Assembly: GCA_022843585.1 (NCBI GenBank)
Contig: JALHNJ010000010.1
Span: 62,001-126,000 of the forward strand
Origin: Chitinophagaceae bacterium
Lineage (GTDB): Bacteria; Bacteroidota; Bacteroidia; Chitinophagales; Chitinophagaceae
Direction of reading: 5' to 3'
DNA length: 64,000 nucleotides
The notes beneath the pieces were generated by a model. It was given only the letters and a program-made list of their open reading frames with translations. It made no database searches and was not told the DNA's origin. Below, piece after piece: positions 25,567 through 63,258 of the stretch. Within the stretch, counting starts at the first letter, position 1, and every line of letters begins with the position of its first letter. A program made the position numbers and the translations under genes.

Positions 25567-26589
25567 ATGAACAAGATGACACGACTGTTACTTGTTTGCC
25601 TGCTGGCAGGTACTTTTTCAGCGTCTGCACAGAACCAGGTTGACAGTATCAAATTTTTTACCGACCCCGGCATTTTAGAAATAACACTGACTACTGATTT
25701 TGGTAAACTTCAAATTGCCGAAAATATTGAAGTTTACCAGGAGGCAGATATCTCCGTTCGTTTTCCTGATAACACCACGATCAGCGAAAAAATGAAACTA
25801 CATGCAAGAGGCAAGTCAAGAAGAATTAACTGTGCTATGCCTCCCATAATGCTGGACTTTCACACTCCCACTTCGCCAAGACTTTATACACTAAGCAGGT
25901 TGAAACTGGTGGTTGGGTGTGCCAACTCAAGTGTGGATGAGCAATTGCTTTTGAAAGAGTATATGGTGTATAAAATTTACAACCTCTTTGATGAGAAAAG
26001 TTTTAGGGCAAGATTAGCCAAAGTAACTTATAATGATACAAAAGGAAAAATGAAATCATATACACAATATGCTTTCTTGCTGGAGGATGTGGATGATATG
26101 GCCAAAAGAAATGGCTGTAAAGCCAGTAAAAAAGTTGCTTTTGCAGTAGATGAAGCAGACCCTGCATTGATGAATAAAGTTGACATTTTTGAATACATGA
26201 TTGGTAATACAGACTGGTCGGTGCCGGCTAACCACAACATTAAAATGATTTATCCCCGCAATGATGAAAAAGCTAAAGTGCTTACAGTGCCTTACGACTT
26301 TGATAATTCGGGTTTTGTAAATGCCTATTATGCAGTACCAAGCGAAGTGGTGGGAACCGCCTCTGTTACCCAACGGGTGTATAGAGGTTATAAAAGAACA
26401 ATGCCTGAAATACAAAATACACTAAAGATTTTTAAAGAAAAAAGACAAAGTATCAATGAACTGGTAAACGGATTTGACTTGTTTAAAGACAAAACAAAAA
26501 AAGATATTATTAGTTATCTCAACGAGTTCTATAAGACTATAGAAAATGAAAAAAAAGTACAATCAATCTTTATAGATAACGCCAGGTAG
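25567..26589 (+). CDS. Secreted CotH-kinase-like protein, copy 1
   Basis: The 340-residue exported protein has a signal peptide (MTRLLLVCLLAGTFSASAQ), a beta-rich N-terminal domain (residues about 25-110) and a helical C-terminal half. It is a tandem paralogue of the next gene. The conserved core NTDWSVPANHNIKMIYP, then VPYDFDNSGFVNA, resembles the N-x-D and DFD catalytic segments of CotH-like protein kinases. The match is by eye and weak. If right, it could phosphorylate secreted proteins or glycans; otherwise it is of unknown function. It ends with a QSIFIDNAR tail shared with copy 2. Confidence 0.68.
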   Translation: MNKMTRLLLVCLLAGTFSASAQNQVDSIKFFTDPGILEITLTTDFGKLQIAENIEVYQEADISVRFPDNTTISEKMKLHARGKSRRINCAMPPIMLDFHTPTSPRLYTLSRLKLVVGCANSSVDEQLLLKEYMVYKIYNLFDEKSFRARLAKVTYNDTKGKMKSYTQYAFLLEDVDDMAKRNGCKASKKVAFAVDEADPALMNKVDIFEYMIGNTDWSVPANHNIKMIYPRNDEKAKVLTVPYDFDNSGFVNAYYAVPSEVVGTASVTQRVYRGYKRTMPEIQNTLKIFKEKRQSINELVNGFDLFKDKTKKDIISYLNEFYKTIENEKKVQSIFIDNAR

Positions 26590-26645
26590 TAATAACTTTT
26601 TTGACTTTTACCACTATCATATACTTTAACCATAACAATCACTGT

Positions 26646-27674
26646 ATGAAAAAATTAAAGTGGCTGCTGCTGGCCTTTATAATAAGCAGCAGTTTTTTAT
26701 CTTCTGCACAAACAAAGGTTGATAGCATAAAATTTTTTACTGATGAAGATATTGTTGAAATTAGCCTGTCGACAGATATTAGAAAATTGCAAAATGAAAA
26801 ACTGCCAGATGTTTTCCAGGAAGCCGAAGTTACACTTACCCTGCCGGGAAGCACTCCTATCAAAGAAGCAATAACGGTTGGAGCCAGAGGTCATTTTAGA
26901 AGAGAGCAGTGCAACATTCCGCCCATTATGATGGATTTTAAAAATCCAACCTCACCTCTTCTATCCCCGTTGGGAAAACTAAAATTAGTAATTGCCTGCG
27001 GTCCGAAAGCAGATGATGAGCAACTGGTGCTGAAAGAATTTCTTGTTTATAAAATCTATAACCTGCTGGAGGATAAAAGCTTTCGGGTAAGGTTAGTAAA
27101 AATGAATTATAATGATACAAGAGGAAAAGTAAAGCCCTTTACTCAATATGCATTCCTTTTAGAAGATGATAAAGACATGGCAACAAGAAACGGTTGTATC
27201 AAAAAAGAAAAAGCGACGTATAATACCGAAGCAACCAATCGTAGTTTAATGACAAAAGTGGCCGTATTTGAATATATGATCAGCAACGGCGACTGGTCTG
27301 TTCCCGGCAATCATAACATAAAACTTATTTATGATAAGGAAAATACAAATGCATTACCCTTTGTTGTTCCCTACGATTTTGACCACTCGGGGTTTGTAAA
27401 TGCGGGCTACGCTTTGCCCAGTGAAATTTTAGGAACTGAGGCTGTAACAGAAAGAGTATACAGAGGGTTCCCAAGATCAATGGAAGAATTACAGTTGACC
27501 TTTGATCTCTTTAAAGCAAAGAAAGACGCCATCATGTCGTTGATAAACAATTTTACTTTATTGAAAGAAAATTATCGCAAAGAGGCTACCCGGTATCTGG
27601 AAGAATTTTATAAAATTATTAATAACAAAAAAGAAGTGCAATCAATATTTATTGACAATGCCCGTACTAAATAA
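26646..27674 (+). CDS. Secreted CotH-kinase-like protein, copy 2
   Basis: The 342-residue product (from ATG 26646; the TTG at 26601 would add 15 residues before the signal peptide) is a diverged copy of the preceding gene. Shared blocks are VDSIKFFTD near the mature N-terminus, NYNDTRGKVKPFTQYAFLLE, GDWSVPGNHNIKLIY, VPYDFDHSGFVNAGYALPSE and QSIFIDNAR at the end. The basic residues and spacing of the possible N-x-D and DFD catalytic segments are kept in both copies, which argues against decay of either. Copies differ most in the N-terminal beta domain, where target binding would sit. Confidence 0.68.
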   Translation: MKKLKWLLLAFIISSSFLSSAQTKVDSIKFFTDEDIVEISLSTDIRKLQNEKLPDVFQEAEVTLTLPGSTPIKEAITVGARGHFRREQCNIPPIMMDFKNPTSPLLSPLGKLKLVIACGPKADDEQLVLKEFLVYKIYNLLEDKSFRVRLVKMNYNDTRGKVKPFTQYAFLLEDDKDMATRNGCIKKEKATYNTEATNRSLMTKVAVFEYMISNGDWSVPGNHNIKLIYDKENTNALPFVVPYDFDHSGFVNAGYALPSEILGTEAVTERVYRGFPRSMEELQLTFDLFKAKKDAIMSLINNFTLLKENYRKEATRYLEEFYKIINNKKEVQSIFIDNARTK

Positions 27675-47542: not shown

Positions 47543-49192
47543 ATGTTTCCGAAAATAAATCCGCTTAATACAAACTCCTGGAAAGAACTGCAAGCCCATT
47601 ACCAGCAGATGAAACAGATACACATGAGAGAACTATTTCTTAATGGCAACAGATTCAAAAAATTTTCTCTTTGCACAAATGAGCTTGTCTTTGACTATTC
47701 AAAAAACATCATTACAGATGAAACAATAAAACTATTGCTACAACTAGCTGAAGAGTGCAAAGTAAAAGAGGCCATTGAAGCAATGATGAATGGCGAAAAG
47801 ATAAACGCTACAGAAAACAGAGCCGTACTGCATACTGCGCTGCGTAATTTTTCGGGCAACCCGGTTTTTACTGAAGGGAAAGATATAATGCCAGATATAA
47901 AAAAAGCACTGAAAAAGATGAAAGCTTTTTGTAGTGGCATTCACAAAGGCAATACAAGAGGATATACTGGGAAGCGGATTACCAATTTTGTAAACATTGG
48001 TATTGGCGGAAGCGATTTAGGACCTCTAATGGTAACCGAAGCACTAAAGCCATATTGGGTGGACGGTATTCAAACATACTTCGTTTCCAATGTTGATGGA
48101 TCTCATATTGCAGAAGTGCTAAAAAAAGTTGATCCGGAAAGAACTTTATTTCTTATTGCTTCTAAAACATTTACTACACAAGAAACGATGACGAATGCTC
48201 TAACAGCAAGAGAATGGTTTCTTAAAAAAGCAAAAAAAGAAGCATATATAGCAAAGCATTTCGTTGCCTTATCTACTAATGAAAGTGCAGTAATAAAGTT
48301 TGGTATCGACAAAAAGAACATGTTTGAATTTTGGGATTGGGTGGGTGGCCGTTATTCATTATGGAGTTCTATTGGCCTTTCTATTGCGTTGACAATTGGC
48401 TACAAAAATTTTGAACAGTTATTGAAAGGTGCTTATGAAGCGGATGTTCATTTTTCTACTACTACATTCAAAGAAAACATTCCGGTATTGATGGCTTTAT
48501 TGGGAATATGGTACACTAATTTTTTTGGTGCACAATCAGAAGCAATTTTGCCTTACGACCAATACCTCCACCGTTTTACGGCATACTTTCAACAGGGAAA
48601 TATGGAAAGTAATGGAAAAACTATTGACCGGAATGGCGAAGCAGTTGAATATGCCACCGGGCCAGTTATTTGGGGAGAACCGGGTACGAATGGCCAACAT
48701 GCTTTTTATCAACTGATACACCAGGGCACTCCATTAATACCCTGTGATTTTATTGCAGCGGCGCAAACACACAATGCTATTGGCGATCACCACATAAAAC
48801 TGTTAAGCAATTTTTTTGCGCAGACAGAAGCCTTGATGAATGGGAAAACAGAAGCTGCAGCAAGAAAAGAATTAGAACTGGCGGAACTTAATACAGAGCA
48901 GGTTGTTAAATTACTGCCGTATAAAATTTTTGCAGGCAACAAGCCCAGCAATTCCTTCATTATCAAAAAAGTAACGCCACATTCATTAGGCAATCTTATT
49001 GCTATGTATGAACATAAAATATTTGTACAAGGTGTAATCTGGAATATTTACAGTTTCGATCAGTGGGGAGTAGAATTAGGCAAGCAGCTAGCCAATAAAA
49101 TTTTACCGGAACTAGAAACGGAAACATCCGTTTCTAATCATGATTCTTCAACAAATGGTTTGATCAATGCGTGGAAGGGAATGAGAAAATAA
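47543..49192 (+). CDS. pgi: Glucose-6-phosphate isomerase
   Basis: Pgi interconverts glucose 6-phosphate and fructose 6-phosphate. The 549-residue protein has the family signatures [36 protein letters not shown] and [20 protein letters not shown], with [11 protein letters not shown] at the end. The catalytic Glu and His are present in these blocks. It reads through to 49192 and converges with the minus-strand operon, leaving only 5 bases between stops and no visible terminator. Confidence 0.97.
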
Positions 49193-49197
49193 ACACT

Positions 49198-49695
49198 TTA
49201 CTCTGGGGTAAGTGTAAAAATGAGATTTACTTTATAGCTACCTCCTTCTACTTTCCAGGAAGGCGGTTTTACTTTTACATCCAGCAGATAAGAGTTTGAA
49301 ATCAAATTATTTAAACTTTGTAATATTGTTATAGGTGTGTTTGATAAAGGCATAAAATCTTTGCTTGTATTCCCCCGGATTTCTATCAGTCCTACTGGAA
49401 TTTTTCGGAAAGTGCCATTAGTCCTTTCAATTAAATACGGTTCACTGCTCATTACATTTACAGACCATGGACCATTACTTATTATCGAAACCCTGCAAAA
49501 CCCCGGGATGATCTTCTGGGTTTCCATTTCGGAAAGCGACTCAAAACTAAGTGGTATTGGCATTAATTCTTCAACCTTCATACTTTGCAGCGATGAAACC
49601 GAAATAGCCCCTGCTAAAGTATGAGACTGAGCCCCTGGTTGAGCTGAGGACACCAGGGATAAAAAAAATAATAGTATGTATAATAAATATTTCAT
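49198..49695 (-). CDS. Small secreted beta-protein C (putative fibre subunit)
   Basis: The 165-residue exported protein (signal peptide YLLYILLFFLSLVSSAQ) is related to the upstream gene's product. Both have a mature-start block PLSFESLSEMETQKIIPGF or similar and both end with a G-x-Y strand plus FT-x-TPE (GGSYKVNLIFTLTPE here). The ATG overlaps the previous stop in ATGA. A short, edge-exposed C-terminal strand is what donor-strand-type subunits have. It is last in an operon with an outer-membrane barrel and a chaperone-like protein. Function is inference. Confidence 0.72.
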   Translation of the reverse strand: MKYLLYILLFFLSLVSSAQPGAQSHTLAGAISVSSLQSMKVEELMPIPLSFESLSEMETQKIIPGFCRVSIISNGPWSVNVMSSEPYLIERTNGTFRKIPVGLIEIRGNTSKDFMPLSNTPITILQSLNNLISNSYLLDVKVKPPSWKVEGGSYKVNLIFTLTPE

Positions 49696-50180
49696 TCAGG
49701 TGTAATAGTAAAGATTAGTGAAAAATTATACGAACCTGGTTTAATAAAAGTTTTCGATGGCAAAAGCTTCATATCATAAAGAAAGAAATGTTGTTGCGAT
49801 AGTAATGCCCTGCCGGGAATTGTAAACAATGGAGTAGCAAACTCTGAAAGCAATATATCTGAATTCGTTGTACTTGAAGGTAATGAACCTTTTTGAGCAA
49901 GTTTTAACACAAGCAGTTTCGAAAGCGGTGAGCTCTGGAGATTTCCACCTGATCGTAGTTGCACAAATGCCTTCAAATTTCTTTGCCCACTAGTTACTTT
50001 AAGTTCAAATGCTCCCGGAACTATTTGTGGAGCCAATAGATCTTCCGGGGTTTCGAATGTAAAAAAAATAGGTTTGTGTTGGATTAGAAGTACCTCATTT
50101 TCAGGCAACGATTGTTGCTGACCATTTCCTGTTTTAATAAGAAATAAAAATCCTGTTATAAGCAATAAGCAATACTTCAT
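49692..50180 (-). CDS. Small secreted beta-protein B (putative fibre subunit)
   Basis: The product (162 residues from ATG 50180, which places the signal peptide KYCLLLITGFLFLIKTGNG at the start; TTG 50198 is also in frame) is a paralogue of the next gene. The mature protein has FTFETPEDLLAPQIVPGAFELKV near the start and ends KPGSYNFSLIFTITPE, close to GGSYKVNLIFTLTPE of protein C. The body is nearly all short strands with few charged clusters, suited to a beta-sandwich. It overlaps the following gene by 4 bases. Confidence 0.72.
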   Translation of the reverse strand: MKYCLLLITGFLFLIKTGNGQQQSLPENEVLLIQHKPIFFTFETPEDLLAPQIVPGAFELKVTSGQRNLKAFVQLRSGGNLQSSPLSKLLVLKLAQKGSLPSSTTNSDILLSEFATPLFTIPGRALLSQQHFFLYDMKLLPSKTFIKPGSYNFSLIFTITPE

Positions 50181-50199
50181 GTCATTCTCTTTATTCAAC

Positions 50200-51027
50200 T
50201 CATTTTATTTCAAATTCCTTTTGTGCAGCTTCTAGAGGCAAATCCTCTCCTGCATCAACCAACACCAGAAACGAGTAACGACCTTTCGGTATACCAACGG
50301 GCAAAACAAAAGTGCTAACTCTTTTTTGCTTTGGGAAAATGGGAAACTCTTGTGGAACTAATTTCATTTTTGCACCTGTTGACAAATTTGTTATTTCAAG
50401 TGTGCTTTTACATCTTACCTGAATATCACCTTCATTACTGGATACCACCCTGTAAACAGAAGAATCGGGAGTAATAGCCACTTCCTCAAACTTTTCTAGT
50501 TTTACTTCCTTTTTCATACCTGTAAGCGGTGTGTGATATATATGAATCCCTAGTCGGAAAAGCTGATTGATTATAGATTTTTGCGTTGTATCAATTTTGG
50601 GCATTTGCATTTCATTTATCATCTCAACAAACAGCATACCCCACTTCATTTGTTTCATAGACTCTGCGTCATTAGGAACTACAATTGTAACAACAACCGG
50701 AACTGTTTCACCTGGCTTCACTTCAACAAAATCTTTTTCAAGTTTGATCCAGTCAGAACAACTAAAAGGCTTTGTTCCGGGAGCATAATACCTGTGTTTT
50801 CCTAAACTATCCCTTTCCCAGTCACCGAGGTATAATTTAAATTGTTTAGTCTCACTTAATTTATTTGTGATTTTTAATGTTCTTGTACCAATTTGCCCTC
50901 CATTCAATTTATATTCTATAACAGAAGGCAGGGCAAATATACCCTTCTCAGGTGCTGCGGAACCATTTCCCAATTGCCCTAATAGGTAAATAGGCGAACA
51001 AAGAAATATAAAAAATAAGGTTTTCAT
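50200..51027 (-). CDS. Periplasmic chaperone-like protein (PapD/DUF916-like Ig fold)
   Basis: The 275-residue product has a signal peptide (KTLFFIFLCSPIYLLGQ) and two Ig-like parts. The N-terminal one (about 30-150) reads LPSVIEYKLNGGQIGTRTLKITN, CSDWIKLEKDFVEVKPGETV and VPVVVTIVVPNDAESM. This is the order expected of pilus chaperones (an N-terminal domain with a long G strand) and also of the Gram-positive DUF916 proteins of WxL systems. The second part continues to a GRYSFLVLVDAGE strand. It sits 7 bases after an outer-membrane barrel gene and just before two small secreted proteins. A chaperone role is inference. Confidence 0.7.
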   Translation of the reverse strand: MKTLFFIFLCSPIYLLGQLGNGSAAPEKGIFALPSVIEYKLNGGQIGTRTLKITNKLSETKQFKLYLGDWERDSLGKHRYYAPGTKPFSCSDWIKLEKDFVEVKPGETVPVVVTIVVPNDAESMKQMKWGMLFVEMINEMQMPKIDTTQKSIINQLFRLGIHIYHTPLTGMKKEVKLEKFEEVAITPDSSVYRVVSSNEGDIQVRCKSTLEITNLSTGAKMKLVPQEFPIFPKQKRVSTFVLPVGIPKGRYSFLVLVDAGEDLPLEAAQKEFEIK

Positions 51028-51034
51028 TTTTTAA

Positions 51035-53788
51035 TTAATTATTAAGGAATCTAACTTTTCTTGTTTTTTGTCGAATTTCAAAATTTACAACCACTTCATC
51101 AGCAGTCATTCCAAGCTCTACATTAAACGACATTTCGACCGGCCTTACTTCTTTTGTAAAGGCCTCTTCGTTTAAAAACACACGGTATTTACCCGCCGGC
51201 ACATTAATAAAATATTCTCCTTTAGAGTCGGTAAGGGTGCTGTAATAGTTGCCTGAGCTATCTGTTACCATTACCTTTATTCGTTCAGCTTTAAAAGGCA
51301 AACTCATAGATGACAAAGAATCTAGTATAACATCAACTTTGCCTGCGATTACTTTGCCTTTTTGATAAGGAATTTCTAACACAGTATTTCCGGCAACCTG
51401 TGCAAATTGCAATGTTCCTTCTTTTGGTATATAACCTCTTGGTGCATACACTTTCGATAAATCAATTGCATATAATTTCTTCTCCACATTTGAGTATGTG
51501 GCAATACCTGCATTGCTGGTAATTAACTGGTCTTCGCCAATTTTAATTACAACATCCCTTAAAGGTATTTCTGTTGCTTCTTTTCGGTTATTTAAGTTTT
51601 CATCAATAAATAGAACAACTTTAAAGTCATAAAACTTTCTCTTAAAGAAAACAGGTAGATTCAGTTTTTTCTTAACTGTAAGAAGCACATTATTATTAGC
51701 AAGGCTTGAAAAATCAGGATTCGATGATGTGATAGGAACATTTCCCATAAGGCTTATATCCCAACCTGACAGCAGGTCTATATAACTTATATTCATGTTA
51801 TTAAAAATCATAACACTATTATCGAATAAAGATTTTGAGAAATTCAGCCCAGTATTAATTCTCAATTTTTTAAAGAATAGTAAATTTATATATGGTCTGA
51901 TGTTCATTGTTTCTCGTACAAGATTTGTGGTATCTCTGTTGTTCCCAAATCCTGAGTTTGGCATTCTAACGTAAAATGCACTAATGCCGCCATGCCTGGA
52001 ATTGATTGCGGCACTTGTTGAACTAATCCAAACTTGTTTATCCTTAAATGTTCTTCCTGCTCCAAAACCATTAAAGCTATTGAGAATAATACTTGTGAAC
52101 TTGCTTATTCGATAGGTGGATGAAAGCTCCAGGAATCTATAAGAAGGAAGACTATTTGATGCATTTAGAGTTTGACGAAAGTAACCAGCACTTGTCAATA
52201 AAGAGACCTTACCAACAACAGTTGACAAGGAGACCCCATATCTTTCAACATCAAAATTAAAGAAGTCTGAATTATACACCGTATCCCTGAAAATATAATT
52301 ATATCCTTTGGTTTTATTGTATTGATAAAACAATCCAACACTAAAATTCTTAAAAAATGTTCTGATAGTATGATTATGAATAAGAGCTCCTTTATTAAAG
52401 CCCGGATAGTAATTACCGGCTAAAAGAAAATCTGAAGAAAGCTCAATCTTTTTAAGCCGATATAATACATTATAACCAAGCAGAGTACCTGCTACCTCTT
52501 TTGGCATACCTGGCAGTTTAAGCATATAGTGGTCTTGTCCAACACCGAAATTTAGTTTGACCATTTTGTCATTCTTATCTATTAGGCTAACCTCGTTGGA
52601 TAATAAAAGGCTTCCCTTTTTTTCAACTGGGTCTACATTTACTGCCATAGTGTGCTTGAGTCCAATGCCTTTAATTTTGTATTTATGATACCCGGATACC
52701 AGATCATTTTTGAATATGCTTCTCCGGTAATTAAATATTGTTGTAAAATTAGACTCTTGTTGATTTTTCCCTTTATAAGTAATACTAAGCCCTTGTCCAA
52801 AAGCAAAAAATGAGTTGATATCTGAAAGGGCTCCTGCATAAACAGACCATCTTTTGTATTTATACTCCAATGAAAATACATTGCTTTCAATCGTATTGGC
52901 AATACCGAGTTGTTTAGTGCGATAGGAGAACCTTATATCTTCTCCTTTTTTTGTTTTTGCGCCTCCTGAAATTCCAGTGTAGTAAGATGACTGATTATCA
53001 GCCCAAAAAATTCCAGCTTCTAATTCTATTGGAATAACGTCATAAGCAAATTCGTTTTTTAAAACATGGCTGCTCAATCTTGAAAATGTAAACCGGAGTT
53101 TGTTGGTCTTGTCGTGTTGACCGGCGGCATTTACATCTATATACTTGCTTTTAATTGATTTTCGCATGATGGGGGTTATGCGAAGGGGAATAGAAATTTT
53201 TTTTTCTTCTCCTGGCTTTAAAGAGAGTTGATACATTTTGGAGAGGTAAAAAAAATCATTTCTTGCAGCTATACTAAAAGACTCTGTGGTATTCCCTTTG
53301 TTAGCAATGGCAAAATCTATTTCTACTTTTTTTGTATTATCCCTTATTATAATTTCTTGATTTTCAGTTGTCAAAGCGAATTTGTAAACTGAAGGAGCCC
53401 TGACAAAAAAAGAATCTCTATAAACATCCCCTTTTGAATCTTTTATATGTATTCCAAATGCTTGCCAGGATGCAAGCGACAATGGAGTTCTTATTAAATT
53501 TAGCGGAGTAACTTTTGTTTCATTGGGCATGAGTTTAACGACAATTGAATCGCTTCCTACAAGTTGCCACAACGGTGGGGCAAAAAGCCTTATTGTTACA
53601 TTTTGCTGGCTGCCCGAAGTATTTACCAGCAATAAATCATTATTTACAATATTGGAGCCTTCTGTCAGATTTACTGAATCTTTAAAAGAAAGAGTAATTG
53701 ACCTTTGCGATTTTGCATCCGGCAGGTATATAAATAGCACAACCACCAAAAACATCAGCTTCCATATGGCTATGTATCTATAATACAT
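51035..53788 (-). CDS. Large outer-membrane protein with Ig-like N-terminus and CarboxypepD-like C-terminus (usher-like)
   Basis: The product (917 residues from ATG 53788; TTG 53803 is in frame) has a signal peptide (WKLMFLVVVLFIYLP), Ig-like N-terminal domains (about 30-220, with GDSIVVKLMPNETKVTPLNL and YQLSLKPGEEKKISIPLRI), and a middle of about 450 residues with alternating short strands (SVYAGALSDINSFFAFGQGL, and others) typical of a beta-barrel. The C-terminal 200 residues hold carboxypeptidase-regulatory/SdrD-B-like domains (FIDENLNNRKEATEIPLRDV, then TDSSGNYYSTLTDSKGEYFI). The order Ig-barrel-Ig, with a chaperone-like gene next to it, parallels an usher, but it lacks the PapC sequence signature. 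The exact role is inference. Confidence 0.75.
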   Translation of the reverse strand: MYYRYIAIWKLMFLVVVLFIYLPDAKSQRSITLSFKDSVNLTEGSNIVNNDLLLVNTSGSQQNVTIRLFAPPLWQLVGSDSIVVKLMPNETKVTPLNLIRTPLSLASWQAFGIHIKDSKGDVYRDSFFVRAPSVYKFALTTENQEIIIRDNTKKVEIDFAIANKGNTTESFSIAARNDFFYLSKMYQLSLKPGEEKKISIPLRITPIMRKSIKSKYIDVNAAGQHDKTNKLRFTFSRLSSHVLKNEFAYDVIPIELEAGIFWADNQSSYYTGISGGAKTKKGEDIRFSYRTKQLGIANTIESNVFSLEYKYKRWSVYAGALSDINSFFAFGQGLSITYKGKNQQESNFTTIFNYRRSIFKNDLVSGYHKYKIKGIGLKHTMAVNVDPVEKKGSLLLSNEVSLIDKNDKMVKLNFGVGQDHYMLKLPGMPKEVAGTLLGYNVLYRLKKIELSSDFLLAGNYYPGFNKGALIHNHTIRTFFKNFSVGLFYQYNKTKGYNYIFRDTVYNSDFFNFDVERYGVSLSTVVGKVSLLTSAGYFRQTLNASNSLPSYRFLELSSTYRISKFTSIILNSFNGFGAGRTFKDKQVWISSTSAAINSRHGGISAFYVRMPNSGFGNNRDTTNLVRETMNIRPYINLLFFKKLRINTGLNFSKSLFDNSVMIFNNMNISYIDLLSGWDISLMGNVPITSSNPDFSSLANNNVLLTVKKKLNLPVFFKRKFYDFKVVLFIDENLNNRKEATEIPLRDVVIKIGEDQLITSNAGIATYSNVEKKLYAIDLSKVYAPRGYIPKEGTLQFAQVAGNTVLEIPYQKGKVIAGKVDVILDSLSSMSLPFKAERIKVMVTDSSGNYYSTLTDSKGEYFINVPAGKYRVFLNEEAFTKEVRPVEMSFNVELGMTADEVVVNFEIRQKTRKVRFLNN

Positions 53789-53818
53789 TTTAAAGACTAT
53801 CAAAGGGTTTAACGGTAA

Positions 53819-53851
53819 AATATAGAAGCCCTTATTTAGGGCTTCTATATT
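53819..53851 (-). terminator. Strong hairpin between putative major subunit and barrel gene
   Basis: A 13-bp perfect stem, AATATAGAAGCCC paired with GGGCTTCTATATT, with a 7-base loop and a short T-tract on the minus strand. It lies between the small secreted protein gene (53863-54480) and the downstream operon, and could reduce read-through so that the first protein is made in larger amounts. Confidence 0.78.
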
Positions 53852-53862
53852 GTTAAGTGCAA

Positions 53863-54480
53863 TTAATCAACAGTAGCAGTTACATAAACATCAGCTTTGT
53901 AAAGACCTGGACCATAGTTCCAGGCATTTGCCAATGGCTTCATTCTGAACTGCAATTCAAATTGGCCATAAGTTGGGTTATGCTCACTGATTACGTTATC
54001 AAAACCTGCACCTGCACCAATTGATGCAAAGTAAGGCAAGTCAACATAAGTACCTTTTGCGTTTACAAAAGAAGTAAGCCCAGGAGTAGCAGCATTTTTT
54101 ACTGTCCACTGAACGTTGCTTGTTGATAGGTTCTGATTAAAATTTGAACCAAAGTACTCAAAATTCTGATCAGTAGTGAATAGGTTGATATCAAACTTCA
54201 TGTTTGACCATACATTCAAATCCCAATCATTTTGACCGCCATCGTTGTTTTCAAATTGCTGATAGCTGTCAAAATCAGTACGGCAATCATACTCAACATA
54301 ACCAGTTGGTTGTTGGTTTGGCCATAAACAAATAATTGGTTCAATTTCAACTTTTAAATCAAAGTCAACTTTGTAATCGCAGCATGGTGCTGGTGGTGGA
54401 TTGTACGTATTGGCAACTTGTGCATTTACAGCTACAAATGAACCAATAGCCAATGCGGCTGTGAAAAAAATTTTTCTCAT
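53863..54480 (-). CDS. Secreted beta-protein A (putative major fibre subunit)
   Basis: The 205-residue exported protein has a clear signal peptide (RKIFFTAALAIGSFVAVNAQ), and the mature protein starts with a Pro/Cys-rich PPPAPCCDYKVDFDLKVEIEP. It is rich in Asn, Phe, Tyr and Asp with no long helix, and ends NYGPGLYKADVYVTATVD. This ending matches the strand ends of proteins B and C (G-x-Y, alternating hydrophobics, then T). It is first in the operon and followed by a strong hairpin, which suits an abundant structural subunit. No family is recognised. Assignment as a subunit is inference. Confidence 0.7.
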   Translation of the reverse strand: MRKIFFTAALAIGSFVAVNAQVANTYNPPPAPCCDYKVDFDLKVEIEPIICLWPNQQPTGYVEYDCRTDFDSYQQFENNDGGQNDWDLNVWSNMKFDINLFTTDQNFEYFGSNFNQNLSTSNVQWTVKNAATPGLTSFVNAKGTYVDLPYFASIGAGAGFDNVISEHNPTYGQFELQFRMKPLANAWNYGPGLYKADVYVTATVD

Positions 54481-55103
54481 TTTTTTACATTTAGAATTTA
54501 AAAAAAATTGTTACTGTGGTAATCCAGAGGTTGATTTACGGTGGTTGGGTTCAGAGGAGGTAGATAGTGGGCTACTTGTTCAGAGGAAAAACCTTCAACG
54601 TTGATAAGGCTAAAGTAGATAATTTATTTATATAACCGAAATTGTTTTTCCACATTTTTTATAACATGATAAAATGATTATCGTAAATCTACTATAACCC
54701 ATGTAAAGGAATAATGTTGCAACAATGATATTTTATTATTGCGATAATAGCACCTCAAACTTACACGTATAAATGACTTGATTGTATTTACCTGCAAATT
54801 CATTATTATTTATTATCTGCATCAGTTATCCTTGCAATTGGATTATACCTATACATAAACCCGTTATAGGCATGGCCATATATATCTCTTCTACAAAAGC
54901 AAGTATAAATTTTTACAGGAAAATATCACCGGTTGATTTTATACTTTTCTTTTGTCCCTATATATTTCTACAACTTCATAGCCTTCGTTTTCAGCTTTCT
55001 GATTTATATTTTTCACAAACCTATTAGTAGTAAACGAGACAATAAAAAAATCCCCCGTTTTATAAACGGGGGATTTTGTATGCTATAAAAAATCTAATTC
55101 AGC
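54481..55103. other. 623-base intergenic region
   Basis: AT-rich, with no supported gene. A possible hairpin with imperfect arms CAATGATA / TATTATTG near 54.72 kb, and the terminator at 55043-55075. It must hold the promoter of the beta-protein operon, but no clean TAnnTTTG box was found on the minus strand. Confidence 0.5.
55043..55075 (-). terminator. Terminator of the large T9SS protein gene
   Basis: On the minus strand AATCCCCCGTTT pairs perfectly with AAACGGGGGATT around a 3-base loop, followed by a seven-base T-run. It is 29 bases after the stop. Confidence 0.92.
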
Positions 55104-58100
55104 TTAAAGAATCTGAAGGAAACCAGCTACTATTTTTTCAGTAGTTTTCTCTGTAACCTTCACTACATAAGTTCCGGCTGGTTGATTGCTTAGATCAAAC
55201 TCTACCTGAACGTAAGGAGGAGTAGTTCTTCTTAAATCAATATTCTTCCTTGCTACCAATTGTCCTTGTGAGTTGTATACAGAAATCACACGACTGTCAG
55301 CTTCAGCTGTTGGAGATCCATAGAACAATCTTACCTGGAATCTGCCATCAGATGGGTTTGGATAAATCCAAAGTCTGTCAGAGAATTGTGCATCTATAAC
55401 AATTACATTCGAACTATTTACACATCCATTGACATCAGTAACGGTTGCACGGTATGCACCTAATTTATCAACGTCAGCAGTAATAGTTGAAGTAGTAGCA
55501 CCTGCTACTGTAGCACCATTGAGTGTCCATGAATAGCTGGTAGCATTTAATGGAGCTGGTGAAGTAGTAGCAGTAATTACAGTTGTAACGCCAGGTGTCA
55601 ATGAAGTTACCGGAGTTGAAATTGTAATTACAGGAAGTGGATTCACATTCAACCTTGCACCGTTAGATGTAACTGTTGTAGCACAAGGTGCAGTAGTTAC
55701 AACCACTCTGTACAGGTTGTTATTCATCAACAAGGTAACATTAGTAAGTGTAAGCGTTGCAGCTGTTGCACCAGTAATGTTTGCATAAGTAAGACCATTG
55801 TTGGTACTTACCTGCCACTGATACGTGGATGCAGCAGGGCCGTTAGGGGCATTAGCTACAACAGTAAATGTTGCAGTTGCACCAAGACATCTTGTTGTAT
55901 TAACCGGTTGTGTAACGATTGTTGGATTAATATTTACAAACAAGGTAGCTGCAGAACTTGTAACACTTGAACCCGGAGCAGGACAAGCACCACTTACAAT
56001 TACACGATACAGGTTTTGATTTAAACCAGCAGTTGCACCAGTAATAGTTAAGGTATTTGTTGTTGCACCAGAATAAGGAGCAGCATTAGCAATATTTGAA
56101 TAAGTACCACCGCCGTTTGTGCTTACCTGCCACTGATATGTAGTACCAAGTGATGGGCCTGCAGCAACCGTAAATGATGTATTTAAACCGGCACATGTTG
56201 TTCTGTTTACCGGCTGTGTAGTGATGGATGGCGGAGGTGTTACAGTAATAACTGCTGCACCTGTATTACCAACACCTACACAACCATTAGCACCTGTTAC
56301 AGATACAATAGTATAAGTAGTAGTAGCAGATGGGAACACATCAATTGGTGTACCGCTTACATAACCATTAACTATAAAGTTAGAAGTACCATTAGTATAA
56401 ACCAATGTATACGGTCCGGTTCCACCAGTAATATCTACTTTGATGTTAGATAATGTGTTAGCACATGTAACTGCAGGTGGCCTAAGTACCGATACATTAT
56501 CAATACCGATAAAATCTGAGTTAGCTCCAGTTGGTCCACCACTTTCAACAAAATATCTAAAGGCAAGGCGACCAGATGTTGGGCTACCTAAACCAGATAC
56601 AGTAGCGGTATATTTTGTCCAAACATTCGGGAATGCAGTTGCATTGTAGGTAGGATTAATATCTAATAACAATGTACCAAAATCTCCGGTAGATGTGGCA
56701 GTTGCACCAACATTCACACTTGCACCGCTGGTACTAAGTCTTACTTGTAACCTATCCGGGAAACCAGCATTTGCAGCTCTTCCATAAAACTCCAGAACAT
56801 CACCATTTTGAAGTGTGGTTGTAGGAGTAAATAACCAGTTGCTGATTGTTCCGGTACCTGCAGTATTATTAAAGTTTGCACCGATATATGAAGTAGGTCC
56901 GCCATTAAATGCAGGGAATACAGTAGCATTACCCTGGAACCAGCCAGTAGTACCAACAGGGGCACTCAGATTTTGAGCAGCCCATCCTGCCGGAAGTGGT
57001 GCAGCAACATCCCAGCTTTCATTCCATAATGTAGTTGGAGGTGCTCCCAAACTGCTTATAACAGCAGAAGTAGAAGTTCCTAAAACCTGAACACTTACAG
57101 GAGCAGTTGCACAACCATTAGCACCATAACCATTAACTGTATAAGTAGTATTTACACTAGGCGTAGCAATTACTGTAGAACCCGTTGTTGTGTTCAATCC
57201 TGTTGCAGGAGACCAGTTATAAATGCTGCCACCTGAAGCTACTAATGTAGCCCGGGCACACACTCCACTTGGTAAACCATTAGGAGTAACTGATACAGTT
57301 GGGACAGGTAATACATTTACCGTAACTGTATTTGCACCTACGCAAGGTCCGTTGTTTACAGTAGCTGTATATGTTGTTGTTGTAGCAGGACTTGCATAAA
57401 CAACTGAAGTTTCAGTACCGGCAACATAAGCACCTGTACCATTAGGATTTGTAAATAAACCGGTTACAGGAGTCCATGTGGCTGTTGTGGCTGGTATATT
57501 GAATGTTATACTAAAACCACCAGAAATAGAACCTGCATCTCCACCTAAATCATCAACAACAAATAATTCCCATGTACCGTTTCCTGCAGTAATAGAAGAT
57601 AATAAAGGAGTAGCCTGAGATATACTACCAGGACCAGGAGCAGGGAAATTATCCGGAACACCTATGTTAGTAGGTCGGTAAGTACCAGACACAATTGCAG
57701 CTGGCAATAGAGTAGCCGCACCATCATTAAATGTTAGGTTAGCATTTACAGCATCTGTTGCTCCACCTGCATCTGACATTAGAATTACCGTTTGACCTGA
57801 TGGTGAACGTAAGGCGATATCTACATCAGCAGGGAAAGTATGTGAAAATCCGGTTAGAGTTACAGAATTAATAGTTGCTCCACCTGGTAAACCTGCAACT
57901 GCTAGTGTAGCAGGATAAGGGCTGGCATTTCCAACAGCATTGATTGTAATAGCCCCCGCTGCAGTAAATGGAGCAGATATAGTTGCCGGAAGAGTTTGAT
58001 TAACTCGTAAAGCTTGTACAGAGCCTGCACAAATTGTAGATACATCCGGAGTTATACAGCTGCAAGCAGTAACAGTTACAGCCTGTGATCCGCAAGGACC

Positions 58101-59039
58101 AGGAGCTGGAGCACAACCACCCTCACCACGGGCAAAATAGGTTGTATTGGCAACAGGGCTTACAGTTATAGAAGTTCCAGTGCCAATTGAAGCACCAGTA
58201 CCACAACCACCAGCATACCATACCCAGTTTGCAGCACCATTGAGGTTGCCAGACAAAATGCTTAAAGTAATTGGCGAGCCAGCACATGTGCTGGAAGGAA
58301 CTGAAGATATAACTGGAGCAGTTGCATTAGTAGGTACACAAGGTGTGCAAATACCATCTACTGTAATTGAATAGCCTGAAGAAAATACACCAGGTGTAAC
58401 TGTTGTTACAGCCAGAACCATTGTTGCTGAACCCGGAATAACAACTTGAAAACTTATAACACCACCGGCACCAGCAGCGCTAGAGCCTGCGTCAGCAAGA
58501 TAATTAGTACAAACATTGGAAGGATCAAAGCTACCAAGGTGTGCAGACACAAATTGGCTGATTGCCGGGTCATTGTTAGTTACAGTAACTGTAACACACT
58601 GAGAAACTGGCTGAGTATTAACAAACGAATACGTGTCGTACACATTACCTGCAGCCCCAAAAGCTCCGGGGCAAGCCGGCTTTGGAGTACAGGTTGAAGG
58701 AACACCATCTCTAAAAAACCTTCCTCCTGTCATAACAGGATCAGCAGCTGTAAGTGCTCCTGTAAATGTGGTACAAATAGCTTCTGGTTGATTTCTATTA
58801 ACTAATTGCACCTTATTAGGGCGTCCCGCATCATTATCACTAATGCTGCCAGCAGCTAAACGCTGCTGCTCAACTTGTTCTTTGGTAAGTGCCTTTTTTT
58901 CTGTGACAACGGGCTTAGGCCTTGCCCCATTTGTAGTCTTTTGAGCATACGAGAATTGCAACGATAGCAGCAGAACAATTGCCATCGGAAGAAATCTCAT
59001 GCAGAATAACTCTTTTAATCGAGTAAATTTTGGTTGCAT
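55104..59039 (-). CDS. Large T9SS-secreted adhesin-like protein with P-domain and Ig-like repeats
   Basis: The 1311-residue protein has a signal peptide (MRFLPMAIVLLLSLQFSYAQ; an ATG at 59000 would also start there), a Thr/Ser/Val/Gly-rich body low in Lys and Arg, a P/Homo-B-like domain at roughly 57.5-58.0 kb (VTLTGFSHTFPADVDIALRS, then GNGTWELFVVDDLGGDAGSI), and at about 55.6-56.2 kb two Ig-like repeats that both have TTQPVN or VTQPVN, YQWQVSTN-G and LYRV-V. The C-terminal 75 residues (LWIYPNPSDGRFQVRLFYGS to NQPAGTYVVKVTEKTTEKIV) are the type A T9SS sorting signal. It is likely exposed on the surface as an adhesin or enzyme-carrying scaffold. Confidence 0.9.
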   Translation of the reverse strand: MQPKFTRLKELFCMRFLPMAIVLLLSLQFSYAQKTTNGARPKPVVTEKKALTKEQVEQQRLAAGSISDNDAGRPNKVQLVNRNQPEAICTTFTGALTAADPVMTGGRFFRDGVPSTCTPKPACPGAFGAAGNVYDTYSFVNTQPVSQCVTVTVTNNDPAISQFVSAHLGSFDPSNVCTNYLADAGSSAAGAGGVISFQVVIPGSATMVLAVTTVTPGVFSSGYSITVDGICTPCVPTNATAPVISSVPSSTCAGSPITLSILSGNLNGAANWVWYAGGCGTGASIGTGTSITVSPVANTTYFARGEGGCAPAPGPCGSQAVTVTACSCITPDVSTICAGSVQALRVNQTLPATISAPFTAAGAITINAVGNASPYPATLAVAGLPGGATINSVTLTGFSHTFPADVDIALRSPSGQTVILMSDAGGATDAVNANLTFNDGAATLLPAAIVSGTYRPTNIGVPDNFPAPGPGSISQATPLLSSITAGNGTWELFVVDDLGGDAGSISGGFSITFNIPATTATWTPVTGLFTNPNGTGAYVAGTETSVVYASPATTTTYTATVNNGPCVGANTVTVNVLPVPTVSVTPNGLPSGVCARATLVASGGSIYNWSPATGLNTTTGSTVIATPSVNTTYTVNGYGANGCATAPVSVQVLGTSTSAVISSLGAPPTTLWNESWDVAAPLPAGWAAQNLSAPVGTTGWFQGNATVFPAFNGGPTSYIGANFNNTAGTGTISNWLFTPTTTLQNGDVLEFYGRAANAGFPDRLQVRLSTSGASVNVGATATSTGDFGTLLLDINPTYNATAFPNVWTKYTATVSGLGSPTSGRLAFRYFVESGGPTGANSDFIGIDNVSVLRPPAVTCANTLSNIKVDITGGTGPYTLVYTNGTSNFIVNGYVSGTPIDVFPSATTTYTIVSVTGANGCVGVGNTGAAVITVTPPPSITTQPVNRTTCAGLNTSFTVAAGPSLGTTYQWQVSTNGGGTYSNIANAAPYSGATTNTLTITGATAGLNQNLYRVIVSGACPAPGSSVTSSAATLFVNINPTIVTQPVNTTRCLGATATFTVVANAPNGPAASTYQWQVSTNNGLTYANITGATAATLTLTNVTLLMNNNLYRVVVTTAPCATTVTSNGARLNVNPLPVITISTPVTSLTPGVTTVITATTSPAPLNATSYSWTLNGATVAGATTSTITADVDKLGAYRATVTDVNGCVNSSNVIVIDAQFSDRLWIYPNPSDGRFQVRLFYGSPTAEADSRVISVYNSQGQLVARKNIDLRRTTPPYVQVEFDLSNQPAGTYVVKVTEKTTEKIVAGFLQIL

Positions 59040-61693: not shown

Positions 61694-61778
61694 GGAGAGA
61701 TGGCAGAGCGGTCGAATGCGGCGGTCTTGAAAACCGTTGAAGCGCAAGTTTCCGGGGGTTCGAATCCCTCTCTCTCCG
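61694..61778 (+). tRNA. tRNA-Ser (anticodon UGA)
   Basis: The sequence folds as an 85-base class II tRNA. The acceptor arms are GGAGAGA and TCTCTCC with discriminator G at 61778. The anticodon stem GCGGT/ACCGT holds the loop CTTGAAA, anticodon TGA at 61728-61730. A long variable arm and the GGTTCGAATCC T-loop are present. CCA is not encoded. It reads UCA and, by wobble, other UCN codons. It faces the integrase gene, so its 3' end is the likely integration site. Confidence 0.97.
61745..61778 (+). other. Putative attachment site (attL-like) at the tRNA-Ser 3' end
   Basis: The 3' part of this tRNA, including the T-loop and acceptor strand, lies between the tRNA body and a tyrosine integrase gene beginning 263 bases downstream. 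Tyrosine integrases of Bacteroidota elements often recombine at tRNA 3' ends. The second att copy would be at the far end of the element, outside this window, so the site and its exact limits are inferred. Confidence 0.3.
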
Positions 61779-61813
61779 CTGGTTACAGTTAATTGAGATA
61801 ATCTTAAAGTAAG

Positions 61814-61937: not shown

Positions 61938-62040
61938 GAAACTTAACATAAACGACTTGTTTTTAACGATTTACAAGAGCTGAACTCCCCTTTTCACTGA
62001 TTTAAGAAACTAATTTTAAACCCTTAAAAGAGGAGTGTTT

Positions 62041-63258
62041 ATGGAAAAAAGTTTTGGCCTGCAGTTTTATCTCAGAAAAAGCAAATATGACAAGGATGGC
62101 GAGGTAGCAATTTATATGCGAATTACAGTAAATGGTGGATCATGTGAAATCAGTACCAAGAGAAGGTGTACGACTTCAAATTGGAATACTAATGTCGGCA
62201 GAGTTGGTGGTAGAACAGAGTTTGCAAGATCACTAAATTCCGAACTTGACTTGTTTCAACGCAAAGTTTATGAGAAAAGAAAATTTCTCATAGACAATGA
62301 TCACGAAGTAAGTGCATCAAACATTAAAATATTGATGCAGGGTGGCGAGCTTCATCAGCATAAATACATGCTGATGGAAATTTTCAAACATCATAACCAG
62401 CAAATGAAAGAACTGGTAGGCCGTGAGTATGCTCCAGGAACCCATGAACGCTATACGACATCCTATAAGCATACGTTGTCTTTTCTTCAATGGAAATACA
62501 ATGTTGCAGACATTGATATCAACCAACTGAATTTTGAATTCATTACCGAGTATGAGTTCTGGTTGAAAAGCACACGTAAGTGCGATCATAATTCTACTAT
62601 GAAATACCTGAGCAATTTCCGGAAGATAGTTAACCGATCTATCCGGAATGGATGGTTACAAAGAGACCCTTTCCTTGGTTTTAAAATGACAAAAAGAGAA
62701 GTAGAGAGAATTGCGCTTACTGAGTTTGAACTACAAGCACTTGCTTCCAAGCAATTCCCGACTGAACGGCTCAGCATCGTGCGGGACATCTTTCTGTTTA
62801 GCTGTTACTCCGGTCTTGCTTATGCTGATGTAAAAAAATTAAAGCGCTCCGAAATTGTTATAGGTATTGATGGTGAAAAATGGCTTATGAGTAAACGACA
62901 AAAGACCGATATAGCCGCCAGAATCCCATTATTACCGTCTGCGATGAGTATTGTAAATCGTTACGCAAATAATCCCCAGTGCATTATGGAAGGCCGGGTA
63001 TTACCTGTTTTGAGCAATCAAAAAATGAATGCTTATCTAAAAGAGATAGCTGACTTATGCGAAATCTCTAAAAAACTGACGTATCATATTGCCCGCCATA
63101 CATTTGCCACTACTGTTACTTTAAGTAATGGAGTGCCTATAGAAACAGTGAGTAAAATGCTCGGTCACCGGAATTTAAAAACCACACAGCATTATGCAAG
63201 AATACTGGATATAAAGATCAGTGAGGATATGAAGGAACTACGAAAGAAATTCTTATAA
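62041..63258 (+). CDS. Tyrosine recombinase/integrase (Bacteroidota conjugative-element type)
   Basis: The product (405 residues from ATG 62041; GTG 62035 is in frame) has an N-terminal arm-binding region (about 1-100, SFGLQFYLRKSKYDKDGEVA), an SAM-like core-binding domain (about 110-210) and a catalytic domain. The catalytic residues include HIARHTFA (His-x-x-Arg), GHRNLKTTQHYARI (His and nucleophile Tyr). The box that usually reads TGLR has CYSGLAYADV, so the first catalytic Arg is replaced, as is known for IntDOT-like integrases. It should integrate or excise the element starting here. It lies just after tRNA-Ser. Confidence 0.93.
   Translation: MEKSFGLQFYLRKSKYDKDGEVAIYMRITVNGGSCEISTKRRCTTSNWNTNVGRVGGRTEFARSLNSELDLFQRKVYEKRKFLIDNDHEVSASNIKILMQGGELHQHKYMLMEIFKHHNQQMKELVGREYAPGTHERYTTSYKHTLSFLQWKYNVADIDINQLNFEFITEYEFWLKSTRKCDHNSTMKYLSNFRKIVNRSIRNGWLQRDPFLGFKMTKREVERIALTEFELQALASKQFPTERLSIVRDIFLFSCYSGLAYADVKKLKRSEIVIGIDGEKWLMSKRQKTDIAARIPLLPSAMSIVNRYANNPQCIMEGRVLPVLSNQKMNAYLKEIADLCEISKKLTYHIARHTFATTVTLSNGVPIETVSKMLGHRNLKTTQHYARILDIKISEDMKELRKKFL

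Follow-up and report, generated by a model that had tools for sequence, protein, structure and literature searches.

Classical ushers, the pores of chaperone–usher pili, have a 24-strand barrel into which a plug domain is inserted, and type V fimbrial subunits are made as lipoprotein precursors. The WxL/WxLIP clusters of Gram-positive bacteria are characterized by DUF916-DUF3324 (PF06030/PF11797; PMC10599100), and a survey of secretion systems, in the portion available, omits the chaperone–usher pathway (PMC4793230). Here we analyze a minus-strand locus in a 64,000-nucleotide stretch of DNA from a Chitinophagaceae bacterium (the window; GCA_022843585.1, contig JALHNJ010000010.1, positions 62,001 to 126,000), part of a 4.49 Mb assembly in 20 contigs whose named relatives are Bacteroidota, including several Chitinophagaceae. 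In order of transcription, the locus encodes a small secreted protein (A), a hairpin, an outer-membrane protein (OMP), a chaperone-like protein (CHAP), and two further small secreted proteins (B and C), all five present in the open reading frame (ORF) list where an initial annotation had placed them. That annotation proposed a new system of subunits, chaperone and pore. We consider it likely that the locus is a chaperone–usher-like assembly pathway of Bacteroidota, a reading for which the conservation of the genes as a module, the chaperone fold modelled for a CHAP homologue, the plugless OMP barrel model and a fixed C-terminal strand in the subunits all speak.

Conservation of the five genes as a module

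CHAP matches were found in 13 of 97 genomes of relatives (the window genome counted), representing 6 of 49 genera, and a CHAP profile matched 60 of 392 genomes (32 of 178 genera) in a sample of Bacteroidota, 31 of them at E < 1e-15 and the weakest of the 60 being fragments. A single genus from another family carries CHAP in 38 of 60 genomes (E <= 1e-20). Eight CHAP homologues came from a protein-database search by a method that depends on shared short words, and six loci from a scan of a genome collection; the protein-database search with OMP scored 7,996 candidates and returned, besides the protein of the window itself, a single match. Flanking DNA was taken for 58 loci, all picked by their CHAP match and some sharing one genome, a sample that gives no rate for OMP standing alone; four of these (L075, L076, L085, L088) were matched in the genome search yet lack a CHAP ORF passing our filter. 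Among the 54 with such an ORF, an OMP homologue, detected by hidden Markov models iterated on those very loci, is present in 46 and absent from 8. CHAP and OMP lie within 50 nt of each other in 26 of the 46 and within 3 kb in 45, share a strand in 37, and are accompanied by at least one subunit-like ORF, found by pattern search, in 36. Across lineages, the membership of the module is constant and its gene order variable. An OMP profile built from the window's clade, applied with a threshold of E <= 1e-8, matched 19 of 392 genomes; CHAP is present in all 12 with E < 1e-15 but in only 2 of the 7 weaker ones. This profile missed 46 of the 60 CHAP genomes and therefore says little about divergent OMPs.

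The locus lies between a glucose-6-phosphate isomerase-like gene, which we take to be pgi, and a gene for a protein sorted by the type IX secretion system (T9SS). In the window's genus, pgi is present in 38 of 42 genomes, and we inspected 30 pgi loci. C, B and CHAP stand directly behind pgi in three (the window, L148 and L149), and in longer stretches of two relatives (L014, L015) the complete five-gene set is flanked by pgi and the T9SS gene. Twenty of the 30 loci instead have a match to the end of the T9SS protein (40–53% identity) 110–964 nt from pgi and no module-gene match; this gap is 110–202 nt in 15 and 561–964 nt in 5, the latter leaving room for a small gene. The remaining seven show neither module nor T9SS match in the stretch, two of them having a contig end less than 60 bases from pgi. 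Four genomes with a module-free pgi junction (G013, G016, G017, G023) nevertheless carry CHAP at another site. The five genes were thus gained or lost as a block.

Both the OMP genes beside CHAP and the presence or absence of the block at this junction bear out the expectation of the initial annotation that the neighbours co-occur in other genomes. They also bear on whether the genes are unrelated neighbours whose likeness reflects convergent beta-strand chemistry. Bacteroidota commonly carry small beta proteins and Ig-like domains, and most of the 73 subunits that we collected have no family match, which would fit such a reading; however, the adjacency survives in divergent genomes despite reordered genes, and the block is present or absent at one site. 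Mere neighbourhood is thus largely contradicted, and we regard it as extremely improbable.

The chaperone-like protein and the outer-membrane protein

No family scored above cut-off when the five proteins were scanned with Pfam and NCBIfam, in agreement with the absence of classical fimbrial, type V pilin and T9SS signatures noted in the initial annotation. Homologues of the module proteins match WxLIP_HBD and DUF4402 above the Pfam cut-off and PapD_N and CooC_C below it. By profile comparison, CHAP is homologous to WxLIP. For these comparisons, nine WxLIP loci were collected and eight aligned (L134, with a short gene, was omitted), ten proteins were aligned as WxL, two of which (L136, L138) have no WxL annotation, and reversed and shuffled decoys served as the sole nulls for profile scores. 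A modelled CHAP homologue has the fold of assembly chaperones, nearest to that of WxLIP, with the two Ig domains of the PapD fold and the two-domain layout of WxLIP, a model that supports placing CHAP among the assembly chaperones. The aligned CHAP sequences stop at the second domain and contain no C-terminal transmembrane helix. We rejected sequence homology between CHAP and PapD: a first match (probability 86.9) was due to signal peptides and was gone once these were removed. In a fused CHAP–subunit model, the subunit half was of low confidence and contacts were not visible. As a side observation, positions 101788-102462 of CP069367.1, a plasmid labelled Klebsiella pneumoniae, contain a segment with 73% identity to Enterococcus faecium WxLIP; the record is possibly a mixed culture or a mislabelled contig.

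The AlphaFold2 model of OMP (mean predicted local distance difference test score 85.7) contains the barrel, strand-rich N-terminus and carboxypeptidase-like C-terminus of the initial annotation, and thus the usher order of N-terminal domain, barrel and two C-terminal domains; Pfam sees the last of these weakly (CarboxypepD_reg, 22.4 bits, below the cut-off of 32.3). The N-terminal region probably forms two Ig-like domains. Within it, residues about 41-106 match the WxLIP profile (probability 79.8), as though pore and chaperone had a common domain. The longest gap between strands in the barrel region is 18 residues in the model's secondary-structure string, which leaves no plug domain, and the count of 26 strands is likewise read from secondary structure. 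The claim that OMP is a pore thus stands as a large, plugless, strand-rich barrel at the level of secondary structure alone. Hydrophobic-moment peaks in the barrel region number 26, against 12.5 +/- 3.0 in shuffles, with the model taking precedence.

Identity with the classical usher family was excluded: PF00577 passed the cut-off in none of 20 genomes, the E. coli control being positive, and was absent from the Pfam hits of two sets of scanned OMPs (10 and 9). OMP was likewise excluded from the TonB-dependent transporters, given no Pfam hit to the TonB plug family and no plug-like insertion in the model.

OMP could also be a porin, a substrate-uptake barrel or an LptD-like lipid or glycan exporter, with the secreted proteins as accessories. 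The LptD barrel has 26 strands, and in VIA comparisons the OMP barrel resembles porins, TonB receptors and LptD about as closely as it does FimD; the FimD match, however, covers model residues 250 to 906 and so reaches over the C-terminal domains, CHAP with its assembly-chaperone fold shares the stretch with OMP in most CHAP-chosen loci, and the block contains only these genes. We judge this alternative very unlikely. Two OMP homologues are enlarged, one (L093:4675-9147) to 1491 residues and another (L100:5409-8933) to 1175, the latter with SPOR domains above the Pfam cut-off near its C-terminus.

Subunit types, their C-terminal strand and the locus layout

L014 and L015 retain orthologues of all three subunit types (A, B and C), with A 39–40% identical and in the same position; a tree places members of the B and C types in remoter clusters as well. 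As the initial annotation had described, the three proteins end in a common pattern (Table 1). In all 30 subunits from 12 loci, this is G-x-Y (28) or D-x-Y (2) with G/D at -14 and Y at -12, the spacing having been read by script in 29 and by eye in A, where the script took a later tyrosine. In the set of 73, Gly -14 occurs in 47 and Tyr -12 in 61; these were mostly pre-filtered by C-terminal pattern or picked by eye, as were the 30, drawn from the same lists, so that the counts favour the motif. The pilins of E. coli K-12 have Gly -14 in 11 of 11 and Tyr -2 in 10 of 11, and the module's alternating C-terminal strand is accordingly pilin-like with Tyr -12 replacing the penultimate Tyr.

DUF4402 (PF14352) matches 9 of the 73 subunits at E <= 1 (best 4e-23), among them one above cut-off that stands beside CHAP and OMP (L096); a Pfam scan found it in none of A, B and C, and as a search term DUF4402 returned nothing from the open literature. 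Compared with the PDB, the profile of 73 subunits matches TLP-1/2 at 3e-10 and a profile of 18 closer subunits matches them at no better than 0.02, with no solved pilin or WxL chain among the matches listed. A 258-residue subunit adjoining CHAP and OMP in L023 is a full-length homologue of TLP-1 and TLP-2 (9ikj, 9ikk; E 3e-45 and 4e-43). We found no publication for these entries in the open literature; each holds 16 chains, which suggests that TLP-1/2 form a polymer. Genes for such TLP-homologous subunits lie at L022:10284-11102 and L023:10250-11026. Two-domain proteins of 342-345 residues ending in a similar C-terminal strand (L065, L066, L068, L070) are candidate tip proteins. In L071:5414-8961, five successive genes for subunits of 180-181 residues with similar ends precede CHAP and OMP, a row that looks like amplification or variation of a subunit.

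Two described systems were rejected as homes for these proteins: the five lack the T9SS C-terminal sorting domain by Pfam and NCBIfam and are not counted as T9SS substrates, and A, B and C, with no lipobox cysteine and no FimA/Mfa family hit, are excluded from the type V fimbriae.

The WxL domain (PF13731) has no match in the window's genome (E <= 0.01) and is not among the best 25 of 33 families matched by the 73 subunits. Their profile nevertheless scores 28.3 against the WxL profile, a weak match but above the maximum of 13.1 in 100 shuffles; a similarity between the SUB9 profile and WxL was rejected, 3 of 100 shuffles being equally good. Together with the closeness of CHAP to WxLIP rather than PapD in sequence and fold, the former score would fit a fibreless Gram-negative relative of the WxL surface complex, in which CHAP accompanies the small proteins and remains at the surface or peptidoglycan as their structural partner while OMP exports or anchors the complex. 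We hold this to be unlikely, as WxLIP is anchored by a C-terminal membrane helix of which CHAP has no counterpart, the fixed Gly -14 strand is pilin-like, and the chain count of the TLP-1/2 homologues points to a polymer.

The strong hairpin that had been noted between A and OMP reaches -21.4 kcal/mol against a shuffled mean of -6.0 (sd 2.1; z -7.5), and is absent from the output of a simple terminator scan. It is possibly a partial terminator lowering downstream expression. The same scan gives a terminator-like hairpin at 55047-55077 behind the T9SS gene, and because that upstream gene has its own hairpin, a separate transcript probably begins at A. Downstream of the hairpin the genes are closely packed, with 7 nt between OMP and CHAP, 1 or 19 nt between CHAP and B, and the start of C overlapping the stop of B (ATGA); OMP has an alternative TTG start five codons 5' of its ATG.

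Table 1. Features of the locus, in window coordinates
Feature	Position	Strand	Description	Basis
Right boundary	55104..59039	-	T9SS-sorted multidomain protein	Por_Secre_tail
A	53863..54480	-	small secreted protein, 205 aa	ORF list; orthologues in L014, L015
A, C-terminal 14 residues	53866..53907	-	GLYKADVYVTATVD; G-x-Y strand motif, G -14, Y -12	
A-OMP intergenic hairpin	53819..53851	-	T-rich tail	folding energy vs shuffles
OMP	51035..53788	-	917 aa from ATG, usher-like layout	AlphaFold2 model, VIA matches
OMP N-terminal region	53060..53701	-	strand-rich, residues about 30-243	model; weak FixG_C/NEW3-type Pfam hits
OMP barrel region	51653..53038	-	residues 251-712, 26 long beta strands	model secondary structure
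OMP C-terminal region	51068..51571	-	residues about 740-907, two prealbumin/carboxypeptidase-regulatory-like domains	Pfam and model
CHAP	50200..51027	-	275 aa, two-domain WxLIP/PapD-like	profiles; fold of a homologue
B	49692..50180 (ATG, 162 aa) or 49692..50198 (TTG)	-	small secreted protein, conserved subunit type	
B, C-terminal 14 residues	49695..49736	-	GSYNFSLIFTITPE	sequence
C	49198..49695	-	small secreted protein, 165 aa, conserved subunit type	
C, C-terminal 14 residues	49201..49242	-	GSYKVNLIFTLTPE	sequence
Left boundary	47543..49192	+	glucose-6-phosphate isomerase-like gene (presumably pgi)	

Elsewhere in the window, the large T9SS-sorted protein at the right boundary has choice-of-anchor J and Ig domains, and two secreted proteins that resemble each other (340 and 357 residues) are encoded in tandem at 25567-27674. 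What is presumably a tyrosine-recombinase-like integrase gene (62035-63258) lies just past a tRNA-Ser (tga) gene at 61694-61779; tRNA genes are a usual attachment site for integrating elements.

Proposed route and comparison with known systems

We infer a chaperone–usher-like route in which A, B and C would reach the periplasm via their signal peptides and be held there by the soluble, two-Ig-domain CHAP, which probably lends a beta strand of its long hairpin to the incomplete subunit sandwich. The periplasmic N- and C-terminal domains of OMP would receive the loaded chaperone, and the subunits would exit through the wide plugless barrel, their conserved C-terminal strand region helping to link them in a fibre or layer. 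The hairpin downstream of A may raise A relative to the other products, as would fit an abundant main subunit, for which A is the candidate.

How new such a system would be needs qualifying, since CHAP is a WxLIP relative and structures of TLP-1/2 are already solved. Chaperone-assisted surface assembly of beta subunits is a known kind of system, and parts are already under study, TLP-1/2 and a WxLIP–WxL complex having been deposited; this variant we did not find described, the open PMC literature, judged from titles and the beginnings of abstracts, yielding no account of the module. If the mechanism holds, the phylum gains a chaperone–usher-like surface route besides type V fimbriae and T9SS, DUF4402 gets a setting, and the poorly understood WxL system is tied to pilus assembly; the likeness of CHAP to a Gram-positive surface protein would join two systems hitherto treated apart, and OMP would be a test case for pore control in a plugless usher.

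Compared with known systems, the module resembles chaperone–usher pili (type 1 FimC/FimD/FimA, class 5 CfaA and its partners) in its chaperone fold, OMP domain order, Gly -14 C-terminal strand and candidate tip proteins, whereas OMP has no usher sequence homology, is modelled with 26 strands and without a plug, and bears a longer N-terminal region, probably of two Ig-like domains. With WxL/WxLIP it shares a single two-Ig-domain partner, homologous and of the same fold, alongside small secreted beta-sandwich proteins, but it adds an outer-membrane barrel and its CHAP lacks the membrane helix. TLP-1/TLP-2 have the same PGVYT C-terminal motif as their L023 homologue, although they are a bigger subunit type than A, B and C. 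The type V fimbriae (FimA, Mfa1) of Bacteroidia are reported to be donor-strand fibres of the same phylum, but A, B and C have neither their lipobox cysteine nor a matching family. More tentatively, and with doubt on balance, the module could represent a third branch of an ancient strand-lending machinery beside WxL/WxLIP and chaperone–usher pili, in which the 26-strand plugless OMP would form an usher class of its own and WxLIP would serve as an assembly chaperone tethered to the membrane and not chiefly to bind the host.
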